Positions 143-23,906 of a stretch of 24,406 bases of DNA are shown piece by piece. This stretch comes from Candidatus Abyssobacteria bacterium SURF_5 (GTDB taxonomy: Bacteria; Abyssobacteria; SURF-5), in contig QZKU01000131.1 of the NCBI GenBank assembly GCA_003598085.1, positions 1 through 24,406 on the forward strand, read 5' to 3'. The notes below the pieces were generated by a model that saw only the letters and a program-made list of their open reading frames with translations, searched no databases and was not told where the DNA came from. The position numbers were made by a program, and so were the translations under genes. Within the stretch, counting starts at the first letter, position 1; every line of letters begins with the position of its first letter.

Positions 143-191
143 TTAGGCATCTTCTAAACACACACAAACCTCCAGACATGTGCTTATTCGC

Positions 192-1646
192 ATGCGCAGA
201 ACCAAAATAATCGCGACCATCGGCCCGAAATCAAGTGACGAGGCCGTTCTCCGCCGGATGCTCGAGGCGGGAATGGACGTCGCGCGCCTGAATTTTTCCC
301 ATGGGACCCAGGAAGGACACGAGCGCAGCTTCCGCTTGATTCGAAAGCTGAGCAGCGAGATGCGCCGGCCCGTCGGCATCATAGCCGATCTGCAGGGACC
401 GAAAATTCGGACCGGAGAACTGGCGACCGACCCGTTGAACGTGCGCACAGGAAGCACCCTCATCATCACCACCGAGCAAATCAAAGGCTCCAACGGCCGA
501 ATATCGACAACATATCGGCGCCTCCACCGCGATGTCAAGCCCGGTGACCGCATTCTCCTCGATGACGGTTCAATCGAAGTAACCGTGAAAAAAATATCTG
601 GAAGAGACATCTACTGTCGTGTTGTCTCCGGCGGCGTGCTGGGCGCCCGCAAGGGAATCAATCTGCCGGGAATAAAAGTCTCGGAGCCGACTCTCACGCG
701 CAAGGACAAAGAAGACATCACGTTTGCCGCCGCACTGGGGGTCGATTTCTTCGCCATCAGCTTTGTCCGGCAGCCCGACGACATCAACCGCCTGAGGGCG
801 CTGCTGCAGAATCTGAAGTGCGCGACTCCTATTATCGCAAAAATCGAGAAACCGGAGGCGCTCGACAATATCGACGACATCATTTCGGTCTCCGACGGCA
901 TCATGGTCGCTCGCGGCGATCTCGGAGTGGAAATGCCGCCGGAGAAAGTGCCGCAAATTCAGAAGGAACTGATCGGGCGCTGTAACCAAGCAGGCAAGCC
1001 GGTGATAACGGCAACGCAAATGCTCGAATCAATGATTCACGAGGCGACTCCTACCCGGGCTGAGGCTTCGGATATCGTGAATGCAATTTACGATGGCACG
1101 AGCGCCGTCATGCTGTCGGGTGAGACTGCCATCGGCGATTATCCCGTTCTTTCCGTCAAGACGATGGCGAAAATAGCCGAAGAGGCGGATATCTATGTGA
1201 TCGAGAAGGAGAAAAAAATCTTCCGGCGCTCCACCGCGATCGATTCGTTTGAAGACGCAATCGGGCAAGCCACACAGACAACCTCCCGCCATTTGCCCAC
1301 GCGTCTCATCGTATGCTTTACCTCGTCTGGATTCACCGCTCAGCATATCGCCAGCTATCGGCCGGAGGCCCCCATCATTGCGGTGACTCAACACAAATCG
1401 GTCCAGGAACGGGTGAGTCTGTACTGGGGCGTCCAATCGATCCTGGTGGAACCGGCCGAAACCGTTGATCGCATGATCGAGCGCGTGAAAGAAGAACTGC
1501 TGAAGAGGGCTATGGTCCGCCGGGGCGACAGCATCATCATTACGGCCGGATATCCGCTCGGCGTCTCGGGAATGACCAACATGATGCAACTGGTCCGCGT
1601 GGGCGGCGGCAAACGCCTGCGCAAAGCGAGGGGGAAGCAAGGATAA
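192..1646 (+). CDS. pyk: Pyruvate kinase
   Basis: Glycolytic enzyme that transfers phosphate from phosphoenolpyruvate to ADP, giving pyruvate and ATP in the cytosol. The N-terminus MRRTKIIATIGPKS is the family's usual opening, so I place the start at ATG 192 (484 aa). A GTG at 180 would add four residues. Neither has a clear ribosome-binding site. Family hallmarks are visible: GADLQGPKIRTG-type strand near residues 65-75 (here IADLQGPKIRTGE), the catalytic-lysine segment IAKIEKPEAL, the metal-binding segment VARGDLGVE, and ITATQMLESM. A C-terminal regulatory domain follows from about residue 350. Length is normal for a single-domain-set bacterial enzyme without an extra C-terminal PEP-utiliser domain. 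It lies just upstream of bshC with a 3-nt gap, so the two are probably co-transcribed from the promoter at 114-142. Confidence 0.96.
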   Translation: MRRTKIIATIGPKSSDEAVLRRMLEAGMDVARLNFSHGTQEGHERSFRLIRKLSSEMRRPVGIIADLQGPKIRTGELATDPLNVRTGSTLIITTEQIKGSNGRISTTYRRLHRDVKPGDRILLDDGSIEVTVKKISGRDIYCRVVSGGVLGARKGINLPGIKVSEPTLTRKDKEDITFAAALGVDFFAISFVRQPDDINRLRALLQNLKCATPIIAKIEKPEALDNIDDIISVSDGIMVARGDLGVEMPPEKVPQIQKELIGRCNQAGKPVITATQMLESMIHEATPTRAEASDIVNAIYDGTSAVMLSGETAIGDYPVLSVKTMAKIAEEADIYVIEKEKKIFRRSTAIDSFEDAIGQATQTTSRHLPTRLIVCFTSSGFTAQHIASYRPEAPIIAVTQHKSVQERVSLYWGVQSILVEPAETVDRMIERVKEELLKRAMVRRGDSIIITAGYPLGVSGMTNMMQLVRVGGGKRLRKARGKQG

Positions 1647-1649
1647 AGC

Positions 1650-3248
1650 ATGTCACCGGCGCGCCAGCTCTTCAACGACTACTCCCACAATTTCCAGCAG
1701 GTGCGCCAGTTCTTTCGGTACGACCCCCGAAACCTTGACGCCGCACTCAGCGAACTGCGCGGAACCCAGCAGAGGCGCTTCGACGAGAACCAGATCAATG
1801 AAATCAAGCTGTACAACAAGAGGATGGACTGCGGCGAGGAAACGATTCAGAACATAGACAAGCTGTCGGAAAGCAACACGGTCGCCGTCGTCACCGGCCA
1901 ACAGCCGGCGATCTTTACCGGTCCGCTGTACACGATTTACAAGACGATCACCGCCATCAAGCTGGCTCGCCATATCAGTCAAAGACACAATATTCCCGCA
2001 GTGCCCATCTTCTGGAACGCGTCCGAAGACCATGATTTTCAGGACGTGCGTCATGTCGAGTTCGTCAACCGCGACAACCGCCTCATCAGCCTCATGTATG
2101 AGCCGCAGGCCGATGTGGAAGGAAAATCCATCTTTGATATTCCGCTCGAACCGTCCCTCTCTTTCCTCATCGACCTCCTCGAAGGCGACACCGACACGAC
2201 CGAATTCAAGCCGTACCTGGTGAACTTGCTGCGCAATTCGCTCGGACGCTGCTACTCGCTCGCCGACTGGTTTTCGCATTTGTTGCAGGCATTGTTCAAC
2301 CCCTACGGGCTGATCATCCTCGACGCGCACCTGCCGCCATGCCGCCAGCTTGCCCGCCCGGTCGTCGGGCGCGAGATCAAGACGCCGCTGCGCTCCTCGC
2401 GACTCATCAACGAGGCCGGCATCCAGTTGCAGGCGCTGGGCTACCACCGGCAGATCGAGCGGAAAGAAGACGAGGTCAATTTCTTCTTCTATGCGCAAGG
2501 CCGGCGCAACAAGGTGCGCTTCCGCCAGGGCAGATTCATCGTCGACCGCATCGGCCTCGAATACGATCAGGCCGAAATGCTGGACATGCTCGCGCAGGAA
2601 CCTCAGCGATTCAGTCCGAGCGCGGCTCTCAGGCCGCTCGTGCAGGACCATATCCTTCCAACTATCGCCTGCGTTGGAGGCCCCGGCGAGATTGCTTATT
2701 TCGCACAAATGAGGAATGTCTACTCATTTTTCGATCTCGTGATGCCGGTTATCTATCCGCGGGCACGTGCGGTACTGGTGGAGGCGACCGTTGCAAAAAT
2801 TTTGGAGCGGTACGGACTACATGTGGAAGATATGCCCAAAAACAGGAAAGAGCTGCTGCAGATGACAGCCGCGCACAAGTCGGGACGCCCGATCGTGCAG
2901 GCATGCGACAGAAAGCTCGAAGTCATACAGATGCTGCTCGATGAGTTAAGGCGCGAAGTTGCCGAGGTTGAGACGACGCTCGTCGAACCCATTGATAAGC
3001 TGAAAAGAAAAATCGGCGAAGAAATGGATCGGCTGCGTGAGAAACTTGTGTCGGCTCAGCAGACCGATCTTGACGTGGCCGAACAGCAAATTGACAAGTT
3101 GAAGACAAACCTCTTCCCGGAAGGAAAAGAACAGGAACGCGTGCTCAACATCTTTCCCTTCCTCTTCGCATACGGTATCCAGTTCATAGCCCATCTGGAG
3201 AAAACGCTGGATATCTTCTCGTTCGATCAGCAGGTAATCCATATCTGA
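1650..3248 (+). CDS. bshC: Bacillithiol biosynthesis cysteine-adding enzyme BshC
   Basis: Proposed last step of bacillithiol synthesis: adding cysteine to glucosaminyl-malate to make the low-molecular-weight thiol. The 532-aa length fits the family. Visible signatures are VVTGQQ at about residues 80-85 followed by FTGPLYTIYK, then VPIFWNASEDHDF near 113-125, both typical of BshC. A predicted coiled coil of charged helices covers roughly residues 420-500, as in known BshC structures, and the C-terminus ends with a short hydrophobic segment. An AAGGA ribosome-binding site at 1639-1643 sits 6 nt before ATG 1650, only 3 nt after the pyk stop, which implies an operon. bshA and bshB are not in the window. 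BshC implies a bacillithiol-type thiol in this organism; the family is known from Firmicutes, Bacteroidota, Acidobacteria, Deinococcota and others. Confidence 0.93.
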   Translation: MSPARQLFNDYSHNFQQVRQFFRYDPRNLDAALSELRGTQQRRFDENQINEIKLYNKRMDCGEETIQNIDKLSESNTVAVVTGQQPAIFTGPLYTIYKTITAIKLARHISQRHNIPAVPIFWNASEDHDFQDVRHVEFVNRDNRLISLMYEPQADVEGKSIFDIPLEPSLSFLIDLLEGDTDTTEFKPYLVNLLRNSLGRCYSLADWFSHLLQALFNPYGLIILDAHLPPCRQLARPVVGREIKTPLRSSRLINEAGIQLQALGYHRQIERKEDEVNFFFYAQGRRNKVRFRQGRFIVDRIGLEYDQAEMLDMLAQEPQRFSPSAALRPLVQDHILPTIACVGGPGEIAYFAQMRNVYSFFDLVMPVIYPRARAVLVEATVAKILERYGLHVEDMPKNRKELLQMTAAHKSGRPIVQACDRKLEVIQMLLDELRREVAEVETTLVEPIDKLKRKIGEEMDRLREKLVSAQQTDLDVAEQQIDKLKTNLFPEGKEQERVLNIFPFLFAYGIQFIAHLEKTLDIFSFDQQVIHI

Positions 3249-3335: not shown

Positions 3336-3367
3336 TCGTCAACCTGGAGCGGCCTTTTGGTTGACAA
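3336..3367. promoter_or_regulatory. Candidate BirA (biotin repressor) operator
   Basis: An inverted repeat reads TCGTCAACC (3336-3344), 14 nt of spacer, GGTTGACAA (3359-3367). This matches the known BirA box form TTGTnAACC-N14/16-GGTTnACAA with one mismatch, in the left arm. The right arm overlaps the -35 hexamer of the bioB promoter, so a bound BirA-biotinyl-AMP dimer would occlude RNA polymerase. It predicts biotin-dependent repression of the whole bioBF-X-Y-DA operon and a BirA with an N-terminal DNA-binding domain elsewhere in the genome. Confidence 0.8.
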
Positions 3368-3390
3368 ATGCCGCCCTCGCCTGTTACGAT
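3361..3390 (+). promoter_or_regulatory. Sigma70-like promoter of the biotin operon
   Basis: Perfect -35 TTGACA at 3361-3366, 18-nt spacer, -10 TACGAT at 3385-3390, preceded by an extended -10 TG (3382-3383). Transcription should start near 3397. This lies inside the longest open frame of bioB and so argues for the shorter bioB start at 3430. Confidence 0.72.
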
Positions 3391-5644: not shown

Positions 5645-6451
5645 ATGGAAATTGATGCGGCAAAATGCGTCGGCTGCGGCAATTGCGTTCCGTTCTGCAC
5701 CATGGGCGCGATTCGAGTCGAAAACGACGTCGCGGTAGTCAATGAGGATGAGTGCGTGGAATGCAGCACGTGCTACCGCTGCTGCGGGCCCGAAGGGCTG
5801 AGGGCGACATTTGTGCGCGGCTTGAGACGCCTGTTCAGGGCGCTCCATTTGCGCTACGACGCGCCTCTGGATGTCTGCCCGACCGGAGCGCTCGTTCCGC
5901 CGGAACTCAAGTGGCCGCGCTCGCTCAGGCGCGCTTTCAGCGACCCGACCGTAACGCACGACAGCACGGGAATGGCCGGGCGGGGAACCGAAGAGATCAA
6001 GACCAACGACATTACCGGCCGCATCGGGCCCGGCGAGGCCGGCATCGTGATCGATCTCGGCAGGCCGGGGACAGGGGTTTTCTTTCGTGATATCGACACG
6101 ATGACCCGGGCGCTCGCACAGCTCGACGTTTTCTTCGAGCCGCAGAACCCGTTAACTCATCTCATGAACGATCCGCAAAACGGCTCGCTCAGGAAAGATA
6201 TCGCAAATGAAAAAGTGTTGTCGGCGATCATCGAACTCAAAATAAAGCTCGCCGATCTGCCCGAAGTCCTTCATCTGGTCGAGAAAACTGCAACCGCGCT
6301 CGATACGGTGATAAGCGTCGGCGTCTCGACCAAATGTGATCCCGAGGGAGGCATACCGCACGAGAGCATCTGCAGCGGCGCCGGATATCCGCTCTCGCTC
6401 AACGGGAAAACGAACCTGGGACTCGGGCGCCCCGTGGAGGGAATGTCCTGA
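5645..6451 (+). CDS. Protein X: two-[4Fe-4S] ferredoxin-domain protein in the biotin operon, unrecognised C-terminal domain
   Basis: Function unknown. The 268-aa protein begins with a ferredoxin-like module. The first motif is C8-x2-C11-x2-C14-x3-C18. The second is C37-x2-C40-x2-C43 with its last ligand probably Cys78 in CPTGAL, after an insert of about 34 residues that also holds C46 and C47. From about residue 110 a separate domain follows (TNDITGRIGPGEAG, DLGRPGTGVFFRDI, then LNEKVL-like helix), ending with Cys231 and Cys243 and a GKTNLGLGRP segment. No membrane segment or signal peptide is visible, so it is cytosolic. A GAGGGA ribosome-binding site at 5631-5636 overlaps the bioF stop, and its stop shares one base with the start of protein Y. 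Inference: an electron carrier or iron-sulfur partner for an enzyme of the operon, BioB being the obvious candidate. Confidence 0.85.
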   Translation: MEIDAAKCVGCGNCVPFCTMGAIRVENDVAVVNEDECVECSTCYRCCGPEGLRATFVRGLRRLFRALHLRYDAPLDVCPTGALVPPELKWPRSLRRAFSDPTVTHDSTGMAGRGTEEIKTNDITGRIGPGEAGIVIDLGRPGTGVFFRDIDTMTRALAQLDVFFEPQNPLTHLMNDPQNGSLRKDIANEKVLSAIIELKIKLADLPEVLHLVEKTATALDTVISVGVSTKCDPEGGIPHESICSGAGYPLSLNGKTNLGLGRPVEGMS

Positions 6452-7074
6452 TGACGAACACATTACATCGAAGAGGAACTCCACAGACACTCCGGCAGGA
6501 TTTTGTTCTTTTCGCAACGCCGTCGCGAAGCCTGTCGCCCGATCTGCCCGATAAAATGAAACGGTTCACCGAAATCTGCCTCCGGCATAACCCGCTCAAC
6601 ATGGCAAAGATCGAGAACATGGCGATGCGGCGCGTCGACCCGCGCCGGCTGAAGGAAGAAATGCAGGACCAAATAGGAATTACCGCCGTCTTCGATAATC
6701 CGGATTCTCTCGCATCCGCAATCGCGGAGCTGAAAGAGGCCGATCTGGGGATTCCGATTAACGTGAGCGGACTGCTGGAACAGGTGAAAGAATGCTGCGG
6801 AAAGGCGGGAATAACGCGACACAGCGTCGAGCAGTCGCTCGGCATCTTTGGGAAAAAGGAAAAACTGCCGCCGCCGGAGATCGTCGAAATCAATACCTTG
6901 TGCGGCCACGGAATGGTCTCGTTCAATCTCATAAAAAAGGTGGCCGATGAGGTGAAGCTGGGACGCATGACGCCCGAGCAGGGAGCATACCTGCTGGCGA
7001 AGCCCTGCGAATGCGGCGCGTTCAATCCAGTGCGCGCGCGGCAGGTGCTCGAGGCGCTGAGAATGAAGGGATAA
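6451..7074 (+). CDS. Protein Y: conserved-looking Cys-rich protein of the biotin operon, function unknown
   Basis: I do not recognise this 207-aa protein. It starts at ATG 6451, overlapping the stop of protein X as TGATG, with GGAGG at 6436-6440, so it is translationally coupled to X. The first 35 residues look poorly ordered. The core begins around FTEICLRHNPLNMAKIENM. Cysteines are clustered in segments that look like ligand sites: C115-C116 (KECCGKAG), C151 (TLCGHGMVSF) and C186-x-C188 (KPCECGAFNP). These could bind an iron-sulfur cluster or zinc. There is no signal peptide or membrane segment. Strict coupling to the ferredoxin-like X and position between bioF and bioD suggest the two form a complex acting in biotin synthesis, for example electron delivery to BioB or rebuilding its sacrificial cluster. 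This is inference. Confidence 0.82.
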   Translation: MTNTLHRRGTPQTLRQDFVLFATPSRSLSPDLPDKMKRFTEICLRHNPLNMAKIENMAMRRVDPRRLKEEMQDQIGITAVFDNPDSLASAIAELKEADLGIPINVSGLLEQVKECCGKAGITRHSVEQSLGIFGKKEKLPPPEIVEINTLCGHGMVSFNLIKKVADEVKLGRMTPEQGAYLLAKPCECGAFNPVRARQVLEALRMKG

Positions 7075-7076
7075 GT

Positions 7077-7811
7077 GTGGCGAAACCTGGGCTTTTCGTA
7101 ACCGCGACGGATACGGAAGTCGGTAAGACCGTTGTCGCCGGCGGCCTTGTTCTGGCTCTGCGGGCACACGGTTTTGACGTCGGCGTCATGAAGCCTGCGG
7201 CCACCGGCTGTCGCTCTCGCAGGGGAAAAACTCTTGCAGAGGACGTGGAATTCCTGATGGAGGCTGCCGCAACCGACGACGAGCGCGAACTGGTTTGCCC
7301 ATACATGCTCCGCGATCCGCTCGCTCCGCAGGTGGCGGCGGAAAGGGAGGATTCCCGGCTCGATATTCGCAGAATTCGAAGCGCCTTTCAGAAGCTGCGG
7401 AGCAGGCACGACGCGATGATAGTGGAAGGTGCTGGCGGAGTTTATGTTCCGCTCCGGCCGAGATATTACATGCTGGACCTGATGTCCGATCTCGGGCTGC
7501 CCGCGCTCGTGGTGATCAGGCCCGCATTGGGAACAATTAACCATACCTTGCTTACGCTCGACGCTTTGCGCGCTCGCAAGATTCCTGTCGCAGGCGTCAT
7601 CATGAATAATTATCCCAAAAGACCGTCGCTTGCCGAACGCACCAATCCCGAAGTCCTCAGAGACTGTCCCGGTGTGCCATTTTTGGGTGTCCTGCCGCGC
7701 TTGGAAATGGTTTCGGTATCGCAACGGCGTTTCGACGGCCTTCAGAATGCGATAGAGGAGGCGATAGACGTGGGGCAACTCGTGGATTTTCTGCGGAGGA
7801 ACTGCCGCTGA
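7077..7811 (+). CDS. bioD: ATP-dependent dethiobiotin synthetase
   Basis: Closes the ureido ring of dethiobiotin from 7,8-diaminopelargonate, CO2 and ATP. I place the start at GTG 7077 (244 aa): a GAAGGG ribosome-binding site lies about 7 nt upstream, protein Y stops at 7074, and the protein then begins AKPGLFVTATDTEVGKT, right where E. coli BioD begins. The P-loop is TATDTEVGKT (residues 9-18), with Ala where E. coli has the first Gly of this loop. MKPAATG carries the substrate-contacting lysine, and VEGAGGVYVPL is the diaminopelargonate-binding loop. A 22-residue-longer frame opening at 7011 overlaps protein Y and is unlikely. The stop TGA overlaps the ATG of bioA. Confidence 0.95.
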   Translation: MAKPGLFVTATDTEVGKTVVAGGLVLALRAHGFDVGVMKPAATGCRSRRGKTLAEDVEFLMEAAATDDERELVCPYMLRDPLAPQVAAEREDSRLDIRRIRSAFQKLRSRHDAMIVEGAGGVYVPLRPRYYMLDLMSDLGLPALVVIRPALGTINHTLLTLDALRARKIPVAGVIMNNYPKRPSLAERTNPEVLRDCPGVPFLGVLPRLEMVSVSQRRFDGLQNAIEEAIDVGQLVDFLRRNCR

Positions 7812-9187
7812 TGGCGAAAAAGAAAGAGCAAGACCCCGCCCGGCTCGAAGCTGACGACCGGAAATTCATCTGGCACCCCTTTACGCAAATGCAGGATTAT
7901 GAGGCCGATGCGCCGCTGATCATCGAGCGGGCCAAAGGGGCATATCTCTATGACATACGGGGAAAGAGGTATTTGGATGGAGTCTCCTCGCTTTGGGTGA
8001 CCGTGCACGGGCATCGAAAGCCGGCACTGGATTCGGCGATCAGAAAGCAGCTCGCGTCCGTCGCGCATTCGACGCTGCTCGGAATCTCGAACGTTCCCTC
8101 GGTCAGGCTTGCCAGAATGCTGATCGAGCGCGCGCCCGAAGGCCTCGCGAAAGTCTTCTATTCCGACAACGGCTCGACCGCAGTCGAAATCGGTTTGAAA
8201 ATGGCGTTTCAGTTCTGGCAGCAACACCGCAGCGGCTCACATAAGCGACGGACCCGCTTCATCTGTTTCGAGAACGCCTACCATGGCGACACGCTCGGAA
8301 GTGTCGGCGTCGGCGGAATCGATCTGTTTCACAAGATGTACCGCCCGCTCCTGATGGATTCGATCAGAGCGACCTCTCCCTATTGCTACCGGTGCCCGCT
8401 CGAGCTGGATAAATCGACCTGCGACATGGCCTGTCTTGAAAGTATCGAGCGCACCCTGAAAGAACATGCGGATGAAGTTGCCGCGCTCCTCATCGAGCCT
8501 CTGGTATTTGCGGCGGCGGGAATCATTGTGCAGCCGCCCGGTTTCCTATCCCGTATCCGCGAACTCTGCTCCCGATACGGCGTTTTGATGATAGCTGACG
8601 AAGTCGCGGTCGGAATCGGGAGAACAGGAACATTTTTCGCGTGCGAACGAGAAAATGTTTCACCTGATATCCTCGCCACTGCAAAAGGATTGAGCGGCGG
8701 GTATCTGCCCGTTGCCGCCACGCTGGCGTCCGAACAGATTTATCAAGGCTTCCTGGGTGATTATGTCGAGATGCGGACGCTGTTCCACGGCCATACCTAC
8801 ACCGGCAACCCGCTTGGCTGCGCGGCTTCTGTGGCCAACCTCGAGATTTTCGAGCGCGAAAGAACCCTCCAGAAAGTAAGAAACAAGATCAGGCTGCTCG
8901 AGACCTTGCTCCGTCCACTCAGTGAGCTGCCCCACGTCGGCGATATCCGGCAGTGCGGGCTGATGGTCGGCATCGAGCTTGTGAAAGACAGGAAAACGCG
9001 CGAGCCATACGGTCACGGCGAAAAAATAGGGATCAAAGCCATCATGGAAGCAAGGCGCCGCGGCATGATCATTCGACCTCTGGGCAACGTGATTGTGCTC
9101 ATGCCGCATCTTACGTTCACCCCCGCACAGCTCGAGCGCATGGTTAGTATCACGGCGGCATCGATAGAGACCGTTACAGGAGCATGA
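7811..9187 (+). CDS. bioA: Adenosylmethionine-8-amino-7-oxononanoate aminotransferase
   Basis: Class III PLP aminotransferase converting 8-amino-7-oxononanoate to 7,8-diaminopelargonate, normally with S-adenosylmethionine as amino donor. The N-terminus FIWHPFTQMQDYE is diagnostic of BioA. DGVSSLWVTVHGH, SDNGSTAVEIGLK, YHGDTLGSVGVGG, ADEVAVGIGRTG and the PLP lysine K292 in ATAKGLSGGYLP complete the family set. The 458-aa length is typical of the longer BioA type. It carries a cysteine cluster (PYCYRCPLE, then two more Cys within 14 residues) also known in Bacillus-type BioA. The start overlaps the bioD stop as TGATG; a GGAGG lies about 12 nt upstream. Last gene of the operon. I see no convincing intrinsic terminator after it. 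Confidence 0.96.
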   Translation: MAKKKEQDPARLEADDRKFIWHPFTQMQDYEADAPLIIERAKGAYLYDIRGKRYLDGVSSLWVTVHGHRKPALDSAIRKQLASVAHSTLLGISNVPSVRLARMLIERAPEGLAKVFYSDNGSTAVEIGLKMAFQFWQQHRSGSHKRRTRFICFENAYHGDTLGSVGVGGIDLFHKMYRPLLMDSIRATSPYCYRCPLELDKSTCDMACLESIERTLKEHADEVAALLIEPLVFAAAGIIVQPPGFLSRIRELCSRYGVLMIADEVAVGIGRTGTFFACERENVSPDILATAKGLSGGYLPVAATLASEQIYQGFLGDYVEMRTLFHGHTYTGNPLGCAASVANLEIFERERTLQKVRNKIRLLETLLRPLSELPHVGDIRQCGLMVGIELVKDRKTREPYGHGEKIGIKAIMEARRRGMIIRPLGNVIVLMPHLTFTPAQLERMVSITAASIETVTGA

Positions 9188-20500: not shown

Positions 20501-21922
20501 ATGACGAAGGAAACCAATTGGGACCAGATATACGAGTGGGACAGCAAGTATTACTTCCACGTCAAGCAGGCGGCCGACGAATACCGGTTCATCCCGGTCG
20601 ACCACACCGAAGGCAATTATGTTGTCCTTGCCAACGGCATGAAACTGCTCGATTTCTGCAGTCAGGTCATCGCCGCCAACCTGGGATACAAGAATGAGTA
20701 CGTGAATGCCGCCATCAAAGAGGCGCTCGACAAGGTCGGTTTTGTGCAGGAGCTTTTCTGCACCGAGTACCGAGCGCGCGCGGCCAAATTGATCATGGAA
20801 GACCTGCTCGGACCGGACAACTGGGCCGGGCGCATCCGCTTTGTCAATACGGGCAGCGAAGCAAATGAGCAGGCTTTCGCCATCGCGAAGAACCTGACGG
20901 GCCGGCCCAACATCATCACGCGCGAATATGCCTATCACGGCTCGAGCAGCGGCGCGGCGGGCGCATCACGCAATCGCTATTACCGCGCCAGTCTGGCCTC
21001 GCCAACCTCCGGCCAGATCCGCGACGTGCCCAATTTCCCCGGGACCGGCTTCCATATCGTGCCCGCCCCCTATTGCTATCGATGCTCGGTCGGACATACT
21101 TACCCTTCGTGCAAGCAGGCGGACGGCACGCTTGCATGCATCAAGGCCTCCGAAAACCTGATAAAGACGGTCGGCGCCGAGACGGTCGCCGCCGTTGTGA
21201 CCGAGATCTTTTACGGCGGCTCCGCCATCAATCCGCCGCCGGAATATATCCCGCAGCTTCGCGAGATGACGCGCCGACTCGGCATCTTGTGGATCGACGA
21301 CGAGGTCATCTGCGGGTTCGGCCGCTGCGGGAAATGGTTCGCGTATCAGCTCTATGAAGGCGTGACGCCCGACATCATGACGATTGGAAAAGGCATGAAC
21401 GGATGCGCCGTCCCCGTCGGCGGCGTCGTCCTCTCGAAAGATATCACCAAGGAGATGGATAAGTACCGCTATTGGTCGGGAAGCACGCATGCGGGCCACC
21501 CGCTGGCGGCGGCAAGCGTTGCGGCGGCGGTGGAATATCAGATAAAGCAGAACATGCCCGCAGTCGTGGCCGAGAAGGGGGCCTATCTCCACAAGAAGCT
21601 GAAGGAGCTCGAGGGCGAGCATAAGTGCATCGGGCTGGCCGAAAGCGTCGGGTTGCTCGGCGGATTCGAAGTCGTCAAGAACAAGCAGACAAAAGAGCCG
21701 TTTGTGAAGGAAGACCGCTTCGCCACGTTTACCGGCGACATCTCGAAGTATCCCGAGGTGATGATATCCGAAAAATGCGTTTTCAACGGCGTCATGGTCG
21801 GCTCGGCTGTCCCGAATACCATTCGTGTGGCGCCGCCGTTTACGATTACCAGCGACGAAATCGATTTCGGCATCGATGTCCTCAACAAGGTGCTCTCCGA
21901 AATCGACGAGATGTGCGATTAA
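20501..21922 (+). CDS. Class III aminotransferase (taurine/omega-amino-acid type)
   Basis: PLP-dependent enzyme transferring an amino group, likely from an omega-amino acid, amine or taurine-like donor, to a 2-oxo acid. 473 aa. AAAGGGGG precedes ATG 20501. Visible are NTGSEANEQAFAIAK, YAYHGSSSGAAG, IDDEVICGFGRCGKWFA and the PLP lysine K297 in TIGKGMNG. The EV-x-CGFGR-GKWFAYQ segment and the VTPDI that follows recall taurine-pyruvate and beta-alanine-type aminotransferases. It carries a cysteine cluster (PYCYRCSVG, then C at 206 and about 213) shared with the other two class III enzymes in the window. It probably belongs with the VOC protein and second aminotransferase downstream. The substrate is unknown. 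Confidence 0.9.
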   Translation: MTKETNWDQIYEWDSKYYFHVKQAADEYRFIPVDHTEGNYVVLANGMKLLDFCSQVIAANLGYKNEYVNAAIKEALDKVGFVQELFCTEYRARAAKLIMEDLLGPDNWAGRIRFVNTGSEANEQAFAIAKNLTGRPNIITREYAYHGSSSGAAGASRNRYYRASLASPTSGQIRDVPNFPGTGFHIVPAPYCYRCSVGHTYPSCKQADGTLACIKASENLIKTVGAETVAAVVTEIFYGGSAINPPPEYIPQLREMTRRLGILWIDDEVICGFGRCGKWFAYQLYEGVTPDIMTIGKGMNGCAVPVGGVVLSKDITKEMDKYRYWSGSTHAGHPLAAASVAAAVEYQIKQNMPAVVAEKGAYLHKKLKELEGEHKCIGLAESVGLLGGFEVVKNKQTKEPFVKEDRFATFTGDISKYPEVMISEKCVFNGVMVGSAVPNTIRVAPPFTITSDEIDFGIDVLNKVLSEIDEMCD

Positions 21923-22559: not shown

Positions 22560-23906
22560 ATGGATATGCAGGAAGTTGTTCAAAACATGTTCTATAAGGA
22601 CCCGCACCTGCCGCCGGTTTTGACGACGAAGACCGAGGGCGTTTACGTATATGACTCCTATGGCAGAAAGTTGATCGACGCTTCCGGCGGGCCGATGGCC
22701 GTCAATATCGGGCATGGCCGCAAGGAAGTCGCCGAAGCCGCCAAAAAAGCGCTCGAGCAAACATCCTACGTTCTTCCGGTTTTCGCTTCGGAACCCAGAA
22801 TCGAGCTCACGAAACGGATAAAGAAACTGATGCCGCCGGAATTGAACCGCATCTATTACGCCTCGGGCGGCTCGGAAGCGAATGAGGTTGCCGTCAAGTT
22901 CGCGCGGCAATACCAGGTGGTTGCGGGCAGGGCATCGAAATACAAGGTGATTTCGCGCAAGCTCAGCTACCACGGAAATACCCTCGCGACGCTCTCGTTC
23001 GGCGATATCCCGAAGCGCAGAGCCGATTATATCCCGATGCTGTGGGATACGCCCCACATCGAACCGTGTTACTGCTATCGCTGCCCATTCGGAAAGGAAT
23101 ATCCCGGCTGCGATATCGACTGCGCGCGCGCCCTCGAAAAAAAGATTCTCGCAGAAGGCCCGGATACCGTCGCCGCTTTCATAGCCGAGCCGATTGTAGC
23201 TGCGGCCGCGGGCGCGACCGTGCCGCCGCCCGAATATTTCCCGATCATCCGCAAAACGTGCGACAAGTATAATGTCGTCCTCATCTTCGACGAGGTGGTG
23301 ACTGGCTTTGGACGCACCGGCAAGAACATGGGGATGAACCACTTTAATGTAATCCCCGATGTCGCGGTCTTCGCAAAAGGCGTCAGCAGCGGATATGCGC
23401 CGCTGGCCGGCATGGCCGTGCGCGAAAAGCTCGTGCAATTGTTCGAGGAAAAGGAAGTCGAGTTCCAGAACCTGTATACCTTCTCGGCGCACCCGCTTTC
23501 GTGCGCGATCGGGAACGCGGTGCAGAAAATCATTGAAAAGGAGAAACTCATCCAGCGGGCCGAGCAGATGGGGCATTACCTGCAGGAAAGCCTGATGCAG
23601 CTTCTCGATCTCCCGATGGTCGGCGACGTGCGCGGCAAAGGCATGCTCTGGGCCGTCGAGTTCGTGAAGGACAAGAAAACGAAGGAACCGTTCCCGAAGG
23701 AAAAAAACGTGAAAATGGACGTCATCATGCAGTGCATGATGAAAGGCGCCTTCTTCTATCCGGGCTACTATCAGGACGACCAGGGACGGGGCGACCACAT
23801 CATGCTCGCGCCGCCGTTCATCATCACGGAGCAGCAAATCGATCAGTGCCTCGCTATTCTGAGGGAAACGCTCGAAGAATCGCACGAACGCTATTTCGCC
23901 GCATAA
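22560..23906 (+). CDS. Class III aminotransferase (second copy, GABA/omega-amino-acid type)
   Basis: PLP enzyme of 448 aa, with AGAGGAGGA at 22546-22554 before ATG 22560. Visible are SGGSEANEVAVKFAR, YHGNTLATLS, IFDEVVTGFGRTGK and the PLP lysine K273 in FAKGVSSGYAPLAG, followed by YTFSAHPLSC. The segment CYCYRCPFGKEYPGC with a further Cys is the same Cys-rich loop seen in BioA and the upstream aminotransferase. It is clearly a paralogue of that enzyme rather than a tandem duplicate, since the N-termini and lengths differ. It is probably co-transcribed with the VOC gene. Substrate unknown; candidates are 4-aminobutyrate, beta-alanine or a hydroxy/methyl derivative that the VOC protein epimerises. 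Confidence 0.9.
   Translation: MDMQEVVQNMFYKDPHLPPVLTTKTEGVYVYDSYGRKLIDASGGPMAVNIGHGRKEVAEAAKKALEQTSYVLPVFASEPRIELTKRIKKLMPPELNRIYYASGGSEANEVAVKFARQYQVVAGRASKYKVISRKLSYHGNTLATLSFGDIPKRRADYIPMLWDTPHIEPCYCYRCPFGKEYPGCDIDCARALEKKILAEGPDTVAAFIAEPIVAAAAGATVPPPEYFPIIRKTCDKYNVVLIFDEVVTGFGRTGKNMGMNHFNVIPDVAVFAKGVSSGYAPLAGMAVREKLVQLFEEKEVEFQNLYTFSAHPLSCAIGNAVQKIIEKEKLIQRAEQMGHYLQESLMQLLDLPMVGDVRGKGMLWAVEFVKDKKTKEPFPKEKNVKMDVIMQCMMKGAFFYPGYYQDDQGRGDHIMLAPPFIITEQQIDQCLAILRETLEESHERYFAA

Follow-up and report, generated by a model that had tools for sequence, protein, structure and literature searches.

Why does a biotin operon carry two genes for putative iron-sulfur proteins that are not among the classical biotin genes? 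Such a pair, which we call X and Y, lies between bioF and bioD in contig QZKU01000131.1 of Candidatus Abyssobacteria bacterium SURF_5 (assembly GCA_003598085.1), of which positions 1 to 24,406 were analysed (this whole stretch is the window hereafter). The biotin synthase BioB consumes electrons for the cleavage of S-adenosylmethionine, and electron supply and sulfur replacement in the biotin synthases of anaerobes are poorly known. The original prediction for this locus, made from the sequence alone, saw in XY a dedicated partner system of BioB. We found that XY is not such a system but a module present in several kinds of operon, and that no family in the libraries searched covers the pair, with two protein domains outside Pfam and NCBIfam. 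We favour the reading, with a probability of about 0.55, that XY is a general redox module with electron-transfer chemistry that was recruited into the biotin operon in this lineage. The two genes are the following:

5645 (ATG) to 6451 (TGA), + strand: gene X, 268 amino acids; N-terminal 2x[4Fe-4S] ferredoxin domain and C-terminal unnamed domain predicted as a ferredoxin-like plait
6451 (ATG) to 7074 (TAA), + strand: gene Y, 207 amino acids; unnamed, with a predicted ferredoxin-like plait N-terminally, a helical part C-terminally and a possible third Fe-S or metal site

In a survey of 386 genomes spread over bacteria (a re-centred survey gave nearly the same genomes), Y and the C-terminal domain of X were found in the same 8 genomes, at 11 loci each and always in the order X then Y. 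Pairing of X and Y is thus complete in the surveyed sample. This sample is small: the eight carriers amount to five unrelated groups, and three of them belong to the window's own family. Phylum-level searches around four carriers covered 1 to 4 genomes each. A ninth candidate for the X domain (in G305, E 8.6e-4 over 53 residues) was rejected as a chance match, its locus holding a GGDEF-EAL gene and unrelated frames and nothing resembling X or Y. Scanning genome contigs with Y alone retrieved the sister genome only, and neither a plasmid search with Y nor a search of viral contigs with X and Y gave a match.

The surroundings of the 11 loci differ widely, and only the window's copy lies with biotin genes. 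First, XY is associated with carbon monoxide dehydrogenase (CODH) operons. The second pair of the window's own genome (C128:190666-192008) lies directly behind CooS in a FNOR-CooF-CooS cluster, where CooS matches TIGR01702 with 695 bits, and the pair of G215 lies inside a CooF-CooS-FNOR operon whose CooS scores 347 bits, under the 478-bit cut-off. Second, in two genomes of one genus (G099, L036; G365, L035:1267-8805) the order is GlcD-X-Y, with a FAD-linked (flavin adenine dinucleotide) GlcD-type gene directly upstream and NikR and NicO genes beside it on the opposite strand. In the divergent block at these two loci, NikR and a NicO-type nickel transporter are accompanied by a Mn/Zn-type ABC (ATP-binding cassette) transporter; together with the CODH-linked pairs, the block hints at a nickel connection. 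Third, the pair of G059 (L021:9151-10594) is translationally coupled between two nonribosomal peptide synthetase (NRPS) genes, the operon being followed by a gene for a TonB-dependent receptor. The pair of G041 lies about 5 kb from genes resembling acyl-CoA dehydrogenases, and in G002 (L019) an Nramp gene directly precedes the pair, with a CooS gene about 5 kb away. Three pairs have no clear partner gene.

Comparison within the window's family indicates how the biotin-linked copy arose. The sister genome G001 has an operator-bioB-bioF-bioD-bioA operon without an insert and G002 has operator-bioB-bioF without XY, yet both keep an XY pair elsewhere in the genome that is 72-73% identical to the window's. 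Because of this, we conclude that, within this family, XY entered the biotin operon or, as a less simple alternative, left it.

We then analysed the two proteins. As predicted from the sequence, X carries two [4Fe-4S] motifs followed by a domain without a family: its N-terminus is a bacterial-type 2[4Fe-4S] ferredoxin (Fer4, PF00037, E 3.4e-7), and the eight ligand cysteines, C8/C11/C14/C18 and C37/C40/C43/C78, are invariant in 11 homologues. Five X sequences, including those of the window's subgroup, have a 29-residue insertion that displaces the fourth cysteine of cluster 2. For the C-terminal domain of X, Pfam and NCBIfam offer no credible family, and no solved structure matches it by sequence. 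In the predicted model of X (mean predicted local distance difference test score, pLDDT, 76.6 overall and about 90 in this domain), it folds as a ferredoxin-like plait. In G041, X (L024:10474-11493) has an apparent twin-arginine-like signal (RRHFLIGSAVGAAAVAASPQAC) N-terminal to the ferredoxin domain and Y has none, so that this pair may be active outside the cytoplasm, or its Y may be carried along.

None of the 11 Y members has a credible match in Pfam or NCBIfam either, and no solved structure matches Y by sequence. The cysteines first described in Y are present: in the alignment of the 11 members C116, C151 and His153 are invariant, and C186 and C188 are kept in all 10 complete sequences, whereas C115 is variable. 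The conserved C116, C151, C186 and C188 would suit a [4Fe-4S] or metal site and suggest that Y is an Fe-S or metal protein, its four-cysteine site probably holding a third cluster (or a metal). The predicted model of Y (pLDDT 81.5) shows a ferredoxin-like plait in its N-terminal half. Structure comparison placed both proteins nearest to ACT, PII-like and designed plait proteins, the best Z scores being 6.2 for X and 7.7 for Y; since these values fall in a range that the tool itself calls common, we claim no relationship. Foldseek returned nothing at E < 0.001 for either model, and its matches to MmpL, BMC shell and PII proteins (all E > 0.03) were set aside.

The biotin operon itself is organized as bioB, bioF, X, Y, bioD, bioA, with these members and control elements around XY:

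3336-3367, no strand assigned: BirA-type operator TCGTCAACC-N14-GGTTGACAA, ending 63 bases ahead of the ATG where bioB probably starts
3361-3390, + strand: sigma-70-like promoter TTGACA-N18-TACGAT, 10/12 matches with TG before the -10 box, a consensus match only
3430 (ATG) to 4410, + strand: bioB, biotin synthase (TIGR00433 of NCBIfam, 410 bits; also Pfam)
4421 (GTG) to 5632, + strand: bioF (PF00155, with position and synteny)
7077 (GTG) to 7811, + strand: bioD (PF13500)
7811-9187, + strand: bioA (PF00202)

Pfam and NCBIfam thus bear out that the coupled pair sits within a genuine biotin operon. Its genes are separated by 10 bases (bioB-bioF), 12 bases (bioF-X), -1 base (X-Y) and 2 bases (Y-bioD), the stop codon of X and the start codon of Y sharing TGATG at 6449-6453. 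The GC content of XY, overall and at third codon positions (GC3), is within the range of the neighbouring bio genes. Placement of XY behind the same BirA-type operator as bioB was upheld as well. The palindrome has one mismatch from the symmetric form (chance expectation in the window, 0.01), its core pattern is unique within the 5.1 Mb genome, and both the published BirA consensus and the candidate sites of delta-proteobacteria (PMC545781) fit the palindrome. This element also precedes bioB in both sister genomes. The -35 box of the promoter-like site sits inside the right half of the operator, and the interval from bioF to bioD has no promoter-like site on the plus strand. With the operator at the head of the operon and no such site within that interval, biotin very probably controls the transcription of X and Y.

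Several observations concern the rest of the window. Within 180-3248, the bacillithiol biosynthesis gene bshC lies directly 5' of the biotin operon, and the pyruvate kinase-bshC-bio neighbourhood is also found in G001 (L068), there with a major facilitator superfamily (MFS) gene inserted. Three class III aminotransferase-like genes occur in these 24 kb (7811-9187, 20501-21922 and 22560-23906); context identifies only the one at 7811-9187, as bioA, the other two being recognised by eye only. An Rfam scan of the window found no element.

Does XY go with BioB across genomes, as a dedicated partner should? Scoring bioB by TIGR00433 at E < 1e-55, we detected it in 161 of the 386 genomes (42%). Five of the eight XY carriers have it and three (G059, G099 and G365) have no match. 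At least five in eight would arise by chance about once in five against this background, and three of those five carriers are one family. Conversely, XY is present in 5 of the 161 bioB genomes and absent from the other 156. In the window's BioB, a glycine replaces the cysteine that aligns with C97 of the Escherichia coli enzyme, and the motifs CASLG, VCCGGI and TCGGRE contain cysteines; both sister BioBs retain the C97-type cysteine, and the CGGRE cysteine is present in all three. BioBs with the CGGRE cysteine but no C97 are found in about ten of the surveyed genomes that lack XY, so that this type does not require XY. Loss of the C97-type cysteine alongside XY in the window favours a local link, but as a single event it may be chance. 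Neither linkage to nor co-occurrence with bioB, the marks of a dedicated biotin synthase auxiliary, was therefore found for XY in general.

These data bear directly on the explanations that compete for this locus. That XY exists to give BioB electrons, sulfur or cluster repair accords with the place of the pair between bioF and bioD, with gaps of 12 and 2 bases, no internal promoter-like site and one operator ahead of the entire operon, as well as with the cysteine lost in the window's BioB and retained by its sisters. As a general claim it is largely refuted by the ten XY loci away from bio genes, by carriers without bioB (both outcomes that the original prediction had itself named as counting against it), by the many bioB genomes without XY and by the occurrence of the same BioB type in genomes lacking the pair, and we regard it as improbable. 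If XY were instead a passenger, brought into the operon by rearrangement and only incidentally under biotin control, its function being unrelated to biotin, one would understand why the operon of G001 is the same without XY and why the copies lie in such different neighbourhoods. However, XY is no less conserved than bioB in the same genomes (72-73% against 66-68%) with all cysteines kept, and near-zero gaps suggest selection for co-expression, which makes this explanation rather unlikely.

Two further possibilities start from the proteins themselves. The plaits could form a redox- or ligand-sensing regulatory complex of the ACT, PII or SbtB kind, with clusters sensing redox and the neighbouring enzyme being tuned. 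The structural neighbours of both plaits would fit this, and a precedent exists in the ferredoxin-NIL subunit of L-ASST, whose ferredoxin carries a ligand-binding domain of regulatory function (PMC12068725). But the tool rates Z scores of 6 to 8 as common, ferredoxin-like plaits are very frequent and XY has no known ligand site, so we consider a sensor quite unlikely. Handling of metals or Fe-S clusters, that is delivery or repair of clusters (nickel for CODH, Fe-S for BioB), seems more doubtful still. Two pairs do lie in or behind CODH operons, the L019 pair is within 6 kb of CooS with the Nramp gene directly upstream, two pairs stand beside NikR and NicO genes, and the Cys/His set of Y is invariant. 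Nevertheless, biotin synthesis uses no nickel, the NikR and NicO genes are on the opposite strand with both cases coming from one genus, and several XY loci have no metal genes.

We thus return to the general redox module as the favoured explanation. An undescribed anaerobic redox module with iron-sulfur clusters would be built from X and Y as its two obligately paired subunits. X, with its two-cluster ferredoxin head and ferredoxin-like-plait body, would receive and relay electrons through both clusters. Y would contribute a plait resembling that of X and, in its four-cysteine site, a third cluster or a metal, and the complex would be held together by the pairing of the plaits. Such a module could attach to differing redox enzymes, among them CODH and the FAD-linked dehydrogenase of the GlcD type. 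One copy would have been inserted between bioF and bioD in the window's lineage and so come under the biotin operator. The module would most likely relay low-potential electrons to the oxidoreductase of its host operon, here probably BioB within this scheme; taken by itself, the proposal that BioB is the actual electron acceptor is somewhat less likely than not. A lineage-specific role of XY for BioB is nevertheless plausible. Several points weigh against the electron-transfer reading. The CODH operons already have CooF as a ferredoxin, which would make a plain electron donor redundant there; an NRPS operon houses one XY copy, and three others are solitary; and no match in sequence or structure names a function. 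A bolder version appears unlikely, in which XY is an exchangeable three-cluster complex that delivers electrons or sulfur to unrelated anaerobic enzymes and in this lineage has come to serve a BioB of the anaerobic type specifically, by reducing it or regenerating its cluster. A conserved, always-paired Fe-S module common to CODH and biotin operons would lend itself to testing as a general carrier of low-potential electrons or clusters.

Among known systems, CooF and FNOR resemble XY as accessory redox proteins in the same CODH operons as two of the pairs. They belong to other families and are present beside XY, X and CooF sharing a short Fer4 motif only. BsaP (Rv1590), the mycobacterial biotin synthase auxiliary protein (PMC11099021), is likewise an Fe-S protein whose gene is linked to bioB in its genome group. 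From its description, it is set apart by a single-cluster site of three cysteines, whereas XY is a two-gene pair, probably with three clusters, that is not linked to bioB elsewhere. The NIL/ferredoxin and DUF39 proteins of L-ASST (MA1822/MA1821), known from methanogens and sulfate reducers (PMC12068725, PMC5764234), differ in their operons, and X and Y match neither the NIL nor the DUF39 Pfam model; for NIL, no match was found in the X C-terminal domain of 8 members (E up to 2) or in 11 Y members (E up to 1). L-ASST is nonetheless the closest functional analogue in the literature, since it too joins a ferredoxin to a small regulatory-type domain and pairs it with a cysteine-bearing partner, in its case for reductive sulfur transfer.
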